From Phaeobacter sp. CECT 5382 (GTDB lineage: Bacteria; Pseudomonadota; Alphaproteobacteria; Rhodobacterales; Rhodobacteraceae): 64,000 bases of DNA. Position 1 is the first letter of the stretch, and the number at the start of each line of letters is the position of its first letter. Below the pieces are notes generated by a model, which saw only the letters and a program-made list of their open reading frames with translations, was not told where the DNA came from and did not search any database. Below are positions 34,692-37,250 of this stretch, piece by piece. The stretch is taken from NCBI RefSeq assembly GCF_001457775.1, contig NZ_CYSG01000003.1, positions 1 through 64,000 on the forward strand, given 5' to 3'. The translations under genes were made by a program, and so were the position numbers.

Positions 34692-34847
34692 CTAGCCTGC
34701 AGCCGAGGCCCCACGTTTTTGGACAAGATCCGGGATGTGCTGTCGCAACGCTTGCTCCAGGGCCGCGATGGTCACCGGCTTTGAGACATAGCCATCCATA
34801 CCTTCGGCATGGCAGCGATCCGCTTCCCCCTCCAACGTTTTTTTTTT
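34692..34847 (-). pseudogene. C-terminal part of the hybrid kinase receiver domain, cut off by an artefactual stop
   Basis: Reading on in the same minus-strand frame after the TGA at 34848-34850 gives KKKT (from the A-run) and then LEGEADRCHAEGMDGYVSKP and on to a TAG at 34692-34694. This is the normal end of a receiver domain, including the conserved Lys of SKP. So the gene really extends to 34692. Only about eight codons, where homologues have an IIALTANA-like stretch with the conserved Thr, are replaced by adapter sequence. Confidence 0.85.
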
Positions 34848-34872
34848 TCAAGCAGAAGACGGCATACGAGAT
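34838..34872. other. Illumina P7 adapter plus poly-T embedded in the sequence (artefact)
   Basis: Positions 34849-34872 are identical to the 24-nt Illumina P7 flow-cell primer (CAAGCAGAAG...ACGAGAT), preceded by 11 Ts at 34838-34848. Read on the minus strand this is the classic adapter read-through end followed by poly-A. The match is seen directly; that it is an assembly error and not biology follows from what this primer is. Confidence 0.97.
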
Positions 34873-36890
34873 AGTCCTTGGTCGGCTTCAGCCTGGCGAA
34901 TGGCCCGGGTCAGTTCGAACCCATCCATGACCGGCATTTGGCAGTCCGTCAGGATCACTTCATAGTTGCCGCTCCGCCAGGCCTCGAGGCATTCGGCCCC
35001 ATCGCGTACAATCGTCACTTCACAGCCCAATAGAGCCAGCTGACGCTCGATCACCGCGCGATTGATCTCGTTGTCTTCGGCCACCAAAACGCGTTTTGAC
35101 ACCTGATCAATCGCAGCGACCTCTTTCACGGCTTCTTGCCCAGACCCGATTTTCGCACCCCGCCCTCCCAAACTGGCCAGCGCTTCCCAGAACTCGCTGG
35201 GCAGGATGGGTACGGCCTGAACTGAGATGCACCTGTCAGTCACACAGCCGGACACACCCCGGGCACCAATATCATAGTCAAGTTCCAGAACATTGAGGTG
35301 GGGCGCTTCAGCTGCCAACTGTTCCCGGAACCAGATTTCGCGACGATCCCCGCGATCCATAGCCGAAAGAACAAAGACCACATCCCGGCCGGCCTGACGT
35401 GCCAGAGACATGAACTCATCCCGGTTAGAAACCCATTTAAGGTCGCAATCTGCCGCCATAACATAGCTTGGCCAGGTACAGCATTCCCCCGACTGGGGCA
35501 TCAGTGCGACCACTTTAGTTCCCGCAAGTTTTGGCACCTTGATCGGCCCTGACGGATCCACAATGGGCAGACGCACAGAAAACAGCGAGCCCTCACCAAC
35601 GGTGCTCTCGACAGAAATGTCACCACCCATTGTGGTCACCAGCTGCCGAACGATCGTCAACCCCAGCCCATTGCCCTGAATCATCCGCTTGGTCACCACG
35701 CCGGATCGTTCAAACGGCGAAAAAATGACTTCCTGCACGTCTTTTTCGATACCAATACCATTGTCCTGCACCAAAAACTCGACCCAGCCCGGCTCATTCA
35801 TATGAACCCGAAGACTGACACGGCCAGGGTCTTCATTTGGCATCGGCTCGGAAAATTTGATGGCATTCCCCAGCAGATTTAGCAGAATTTGCCGCAACCG
35901 GCCCGCATCGCCAGTCATCGTATCAGGCAAATCGGGCTGCACTGACAGGGCAAGACTCACCTGAAGCTGGCTTGCATGTGGTCGCAGCGTGGCCAAGGCG
36001 CTCTCGATTACTGAAAGCGGCCGCATCGGGGCCTGTACTAGCTCCATCTTGCCCGCTTCGATCTTTGACACATCCAGAATATCGTCAATGATCCACAAAA
36101 GTGAGGTGGAAGATTCGCGGATTGTATGCAGGATACGGCGCTGCTCCGGCGTGAGCTCGGTGTTTTCCAGGATTTCGACCATGCCGATCACCCCATTCAT
36201 CGGGGTCCGGATTTCATGGCTCATGGCGGCGAGGAATTCGCTTTTGGCTCGATTTGCCTTTTGTTCATCCTGATGCGCCCGAACCAGATCATCGCTGTAG
36301 TTGTCGGCCAGTTGGCCAAAGGCCATGGTTTCAAAGATGATAATCGCAAAGGTGGTCAAAAGCACACCACCGGACAGATAGGCCTGTCCGAATTCCATGC
36401 CCAGTATTGGTGGGCCAAAGAAGTCATGGCCCAGGTATCGATACATCAGCCAGCTCAGCAGAATGCTGGCAAGCAAGGCAAGAATCACTGACCTTTCTCG
36501 TCGCATGGAAAAGGTCATGAACGGCCCCCCGAGAAGGGCCGCAAACAGCAGTTCCACATTGCTGGCGGGATGGATCGTAAACACTGCGCCGATCACTGAC
36601 ATCAAGCCGGTACCGAACCATGTCAGCCGCGCCACCATTTTGTATTTGGTCCGGATCAGGAAACTGGCCGTGGTGGAACCAACGACAGCAATGGAGGCAA
36701 TCGCCACCACCACAGGTTCTTGGAATGAAACACCAAAAATGATCCAGAAGATCCCAAGGAGAACCACAAGATTGGAGGTGGTGCGTACCGTTCGGAACCG
36801 CCGATCCATCAGGGCGGTATGTTGCTGCAACACGACGCGTTCCTGCTTTTCGGACGCGGCCTGTTCACTGTGAACCTTTGCTTCAGACAC
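34848..36890 (-). CDS. Hybrid sensor histidine kinase/response regulator, 3' end broken by adapter artefact
   Basis: As it stands 680 residues; the intact protein would be about 732 and end at 34692. The start is the GTG at 36890, six bases after GGAGG; a 17-residue longer frame lacks an RBS. Five or six N-terminal transmembrane helices come first, then an H-box [19 protein letters not shown], the ATPase domain ([34 protein letters not shown]), a degenerate region of about 100 residues, and a receiver domain ([11 protein letters not shown], phospho-Asp in [12 protein letters not shown]). No periplasmic sensor domain is evident. The signal is unknown. Confidence 0.9.
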
Positions 36891-37250
36891 GTGACCTCCT
36901 AAAAAACTTTTGCGACCTCTAAATACGGGCCGCCGTGCCACTCAACGAAAACGAGATCCGCACAGCCTAACACCGTGCGAACCACGACCCTCTGCCATGA
37001 CGCAAAACGCGCGCAACAACCTCAAGGTGTCGAGAGAATGCGCACAACGGGTTAACATTCCCTGTTTTGCCGACATATTTCAGCGGCCCGCTAGGAAATA
37101 TTCGAAGTACCCGGAAACCTACTCTGCACTCGGGGCCATTCTGGCCTCAGATCCTGGGCAACCATGATCGTATTTGCAGTGCCGCCCTACGTCGCAGTCT
37201 GGACCTTGAACCAGGAAAGCCTTAGATCTTCACGCAAGGAGACGCCCGCT
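36891..37250. promoter_or_regulatory. Divergent intergenic region, hybrid kinase / ispH
   Basis: These 360 bp lie between two divergent genes and must hold both promoters. An AT-rich stretch lies around 37075-37105. A good RBS (AAGGAGACG) precedes ispH. I see no gene and no operator that I can name. Confidence 0.4.

Follow-up and report, generated by a model that had tools for sequence, protein, structure and literature searches.

Indexed library primers consist of the P7 oligo followed by an index and a stub. Contamination with P7 is found in public genome contigs in at least 120 stretches. Among 124 P7 matches in the stretches listed, 68 carry a TruSeq stub and 50 a Nextera stub, one is too short to judge and five have no stub. 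Among the five, L023 has a Nextera stub missing a base, which brings the matches listed to 119 of 124 with a stub and four direct joins; besides a Paenibacillus case (L119) described below, the latter are L048, L083 and L095, all of which lie at contig ends. A run of at least eight T's stands directly before P7 in 80 of the 87 listed public matches that have at least 10 bases of room, so that a T run is a normal companion of P7 contamination and is not diagnostic of its kind.

A printed case of a length-preserving change comes from Cupriavidus metallidurans MSR33. For Rmet_5508 of this strain, the excerpted text of PMC6266692 describes a CTT insertion, a CGG deletion and two SNPs, which together keep the length and convert RFAQKPAYV to FAKQKTAYE, and ascribes the insertion to an unknown mutational event. 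Mispriming is treated in the excerpt of PMC3163567 for mixed sequencing primers only. The mechanism proposed here was not found among titles and abstract starts on flow-cell or P7 mispriming and on adapters in assemblies or databases, which is no proof of its absence in print. The 10-residue peptide encoded by the oligo, together with six other oligo-encoded peptides, was not found in the literature searched; the peptide KQKTAYE was found in two papers, PMC6266692 and PMC6162092.

The scar in a hybrid histidine kinase gene

We analysed a window of 64,000 nucleotides, positions 1 to 64,000 of contig NZ_CYSG01000003.1 of Phaeobacter sp. CECT 5382. An earlier note on this DNA had claimed 11 T's and an exact 24-nt P7 primer inside a kinase gene, and both are present where it placed them. 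The features of the locus are as follows:

34838 to 34848, plus strand: run of 11 T's, resembling the T spacer ahead of P7 on the flow-cell oligo
34849 to 34872, plus strand: Illumina P7 oligo, exact 24 nt, CAAGCAGAAGACGGCATACGAGAT, abutting gene sequence directly at 34873
34848 to 34850, minus strand: false TGA stop arising at the junction of P7 and the T run
34851 to 36941, minus strand: hybrid histidine kinase frame as deposited, with HisKA, HATPase_c and Response_reg (profile positions 1-68 of 111)
34692 to 34835, minus strand: in-frame remainder of the receiver domain, to a TAG at 34694-34692, similar to ten same-genus orthologues at their C-termini

The T spacer before P7 is presumably part of the flow-cell oligo. 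An exact P7 24-mer is expected about 3e-8 times on both strands of the 4.11-Mb genome and is observed twice, while the pattern read backwards has 0 matches in the same genome. In the excerpt of PMC11731217, an indexing primer has the letters of CAAGCAGAAGACGGCATACGAGAT as its P7 end. Neither index nor stub lies between the kinase gene and P7, which are joined directly at 34872/34873, and the scar is situated well within its 349,773-base contig.

The deposited ORF runs on the minus strand from 36941 to 34848 and encodes 697 aa, with the TGA at 34850-34848; this confirms the false stop that had been proposed in the receiver domain. HisKA, HATPase_c and Response_reg all exceed the Pfam cut-off, and the receiver match stops at profile position 68 of 111. 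Past the TGA, the frame stays in phase until the TAG at 34694-34692, again in agreement with the note, and encodes the rest of the receiver domain.

Comparison with orthologous genes, a check that had been suggested, was carried out in a genus set of 12 genomes including our own. The kinase gene is found in eleven same-genus relatives, of which ten were aligned and one (L139) was left out, its match being cut at a contig end with no usable frame. The codon number at the scar is equal in all ten aligned orthologues, and the natural bases were thus replaced one for one, in register. Specifically, the 12-residue scar peptide of our gene stands opposite LRHTPIVAVTANA and its variants in the orthologues, and mean identity to the relatives is 0.58 in the flanks but 0.38 within the 35-base scar. 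The earlier claim of a replacement of equal length without frameshift therefore stands, while its count of eight codons does not, since the 35 bases touch 13 orthologue codons. The relatives are rather distant: protein identity reaches at most 65% in the nearest, and the DNA matches, whole or partial, listed at the kinase gene in the genus set are 66-77% identical.

The 35 bases are almost certainly a sequencing artefact. Judged from its sequence, the kinase is not a naturally truncated, receiver-deficient one, because its stop is made of oligo sequence and, beyond it, the reading frame goes on with residues common to the orthologues. The earlier warning that a truncated-kinase annotation would be wrong is borne out by a stop that lies in oligo sequence and a scar that is in register, and the gene should be neither annotated nor studied in that form. 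The scar is not a real biological feature, and its modest interest is one of curation.

Two further scars in the same genome

At least two more oligo sequences are located in other genes of the genome:

C3 (the contig of the kinase), 239382 to 239405: second exact P7, with a run of nine T's, in gcvT; in frame, length kept
C13, 86747 to 86779 (P5 at 86751): P5 oligo, one mismatch (28 of 29 bases match over the extended length), in a membrane-protein-like gene; in register

In gcvT, a scar peptide of 14 residues stands where ten same-genus relatives have SRLGYTGEDGYEIS (10 of the 11 were aligned; G001, whose match falls into three pieces, was left out). The length at the scar is kept in comparison with these ten and with nine more distant relatives, and mean identity falls from 0.81 in the flank to 0.40 in the scar. 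P7 is joined to the gene directly, with neither index nor stub. The same holds for P5 in the membrane-protein-like gene, the protein of which reads YICFNDTATSEIYTLLFATW at the scar against, for example, YISASLLATYDVFSLVFATW in relatives; the alignment is ungapped in 14 of the 14 relatives shown, and mean identity goes from 0.72 in the flank to 0.48. The P5 scar includes one non-P5 base, and just four T's stand directly before the oligo. Since the lone non-P5 base is the base of 12 of 12 relatives, the P5 scar combines oligo and natural bases in a mosaic. Both alleles, that of gcvT and that of the membrane-protein gene, contain invented residues in this genome.

The oligo was not found at any of the three sites in the aligned same-genus genomes. 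In a draw of 295 genomes of the family, outside which the same-genus genomes stood, eight T's plus P7 occur in our genome alone (0 of 294 others). A search of our genome for partial scars (seven T's plus the start of P7, up to three mismatches) returned the two known sites and five places with three mismatches, which we take as chance (two control matches). Likewise, four T's plus the start of P5 returned the known site and C4:77243 (two mismatches, one control match), and the latter does not continue as P5.

Origin of the scars

The observed part of our explanation comprises the oligo, the direct way in which it abuts the gene, the replacement in register and the presence of two more scars. 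Because index and stub follow P7 in an indexed primer, a join right after ...GAGAT would need an oligo that ends there, and its source may be a flow-cell oligo or a bare P7 primer. In our view it is likely that a bare oligo misprimed and that the consensus was then overwritten in register. The oligo, a bare P7 that was most probably the one grafted to the flow cell with its T spacer, would anneal to genomic library DNA resembling its 3' part and be extended. Reads from the extended molecules, ending in the P7 complement and A's, would align to the locus without gaps, since the oligo lies in register over the natural site. Such reads would win the consensus over the natural bases, and the outcome would be an overwrite of unchanged length together with the false stop.

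Mispriming of this kind predicts that the natural sites resemble the 3' part of the oligo. For this test, the in-register matches of the natural relatives were set against those at the remaining positions of their sequences on the two strands, with six tail lengths per site. With overlapping positions as controls, and with the quoted tail lengths uncorrected for the six tried, the gcvT relatives match on average 7.1 of the last 8 P7 bases (0 of 2437 controls as high) and 10.7 of all 24 (28 of 2405), and the P5-gene relatives (12 of 14; L181 and L182 left out) match 12.7 of the last 20 P5 bases (1 of 4777) and, more poorly at the very end, 4.7 of the last 8 (47 of 4801). The distant relatives of the kinase give a weak signal, with 2.9 of the last 8 P7 bases, a value reached by 741 of 4477 controls, and 6.0 of the last 12, reached by 68 of 4469. 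As far as such base matching can tell, these data support mispriming at the level of the genome, though not by itself at the kinase site.

Ordinary adapter read-through of short inserts, left untrimmed and assembled, was the mechanism given in the earlier note. It would end in P7 with a T run on the far side, exactly the arrangement of the 80 public matches counted above, and P7 contamination is common in public contigs, which speaks for it. The join nevertheless speaks against the earlier reading: in the kinase, P7 follows the gene with neither index nor stub in between, as compared with 119 of the 124 public matches listed that have one, and the other two scars lack them as well. In a search restricted to the TruSeq stub core AGATCGGAAGAGC, no exact copy turned up in the genome, where four places match it with one mismatch. 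Moreover, read-through predicts no preference for sites like the 3' part of the oligo, which is seen at gcvT and the P5 gene and weakly at the kinase, and it would hardly yield direct joins of both P5 and P7. We therefore regard read-through as unlikely.

The missing stub would be accounted for if the library had been made with the bare 24-mer as its ligated adapter and then read through directly. Such adapters belong to old small-RNA kits and are unusual for genomic DNA. This origin predicts neither the site similarity at gcvT and the P5 gene nor a direct P5 join in the same genome, and we consider it very improbable. That the oligo truly belongs to the DNA of the organism and truncates the kinase is scarcely credible: the position far inside the contig would suit it, yet a synthetic 24-mer would have to occur twice and P5 once, each overwriting codons shared by the relatives at unchanged length, and the T run with P7 is absent from all 294 further genomes of the family draw.

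Parallels and comparison with known systems

Bare-oligo mispriming may also apply to cases in other genomes. In E. coli, P7 is matched (E<=1) in 9 of 5426 genomes; six of the nine matches have index and stub (L186-L191), two are direct joins (L185 and L192) and one is a partial match of unclear type (L193). The first direct join consists of ten T's and P7 in the prophage tail sheath gene of NZ_CP157243.1. Compared with one close relative (of 215 matching genomes), it shows 22 mismatches over 601 ungapped positions, all within the footprint of the oligo. The natural site there shares 6 of the last 8 P7 bases (0 of 1185 controls) and 7 of the last 12 (24 of 1177), with an unbroken 3' match of 2 bases only. 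The second direct join, in kdpA of NZ_LR882052.1, is P7 without its last two bases in a gene annotated as frameshifted. Here 25 bases replace 12, out of register, in comparison with one relative of 5371 matching genomes; as its sequence stands, this site does not fit simple priming and register.

A further parallel is found in Paenibacillus sp. GM2 (NZ_LN831279.1; L119:6000-6240), in which P7 and 15 A's stand in one of two near-duplicate tracts. The last 13 bases of P7 also stand in the oligo-free near-duplicate, 128 bases on, and beyond P7 and the A run both tracts are back in register. This region holds an N and may be misassembled otherwise.

For MSR33, the site in the CH34 reference (NC_007974.2:2253540-2253568; L197) matches 18 of the last 20 P7 bases (0 of 561 controls). 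When the changes given in the excerpt of PMC6266692 are applied with the insertion before 2253560, they yield P7 in its exact 24-nt form as well as the peptide given in the paper; with the insertion after 2253560, they do not. As far as the excerpt of that paper describes them, the 'mutations' of Rmet_5508 are probably the same artefact in print.

Matches are also present in viral sequences. Among phage records, 64 of 50,697 match the oligo at E<=1, and 50 of these do so at 99% identity or more, whatever the type of join. In viral contigs, 11 stretches (L215-L225) match a pattern designed to exclude stubs, several of them far from the stretch ends; one (L219) additionally holds a second P7, with a stub.

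It is likely, with somewhat less assurance than for our genome alone, that bare P5 and P7 oligos prime chance genomic sites sharing their 3' part and overwrite the consensus in register, and so create a recognisable kind of false allele, unchanged in length and able to get past checks of frame and length, of which one or more have been printed as mutations, with direct joins in isolates, complete E. coli genomes and viral contigs. In-register oligo scars can leave frames intact, so they may escape such checks and be printed as mutations, as the excerpt of PMC6266692 suggests. Screening for bare P7 and P5 joins in all frames should reveal them.

Set against known systems, the affected gene belongs to the hybrid histidine kinases (HisKA, HATPase_c, Response_reg), and the early stop of the deposited copy comes solely from the artefact. 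The scar resembles public adapter contamination in that P7 and a T run are embedded in a contig. It differs in being a direct join, whereas index and a TruSeq or Nextera stub are present in 119 of the 124 public matches listed. It also lies deep in its contig, whereas the listed public matches are mostly within 200 bases of a stretch end (exceptions L055, L063, L071 and L119; L069 is close to the end of its stretch, yet inside a longer contig). With Paenibacillus sp. GM2 it shares an internal direct P7 join, a long T run (A on the other strand) and the kept register; there, however, a 13-base 3' identity is visible, while the kinase can be compared through distant relatives only. With MSR33 it shares an exact P7 and no net length change, given one placement of the insertion; according to the excerpt of PMC6266692, the MSR33 changes were called as mutations in a resequencing project, whereas the kinase scar stands in an assembly.
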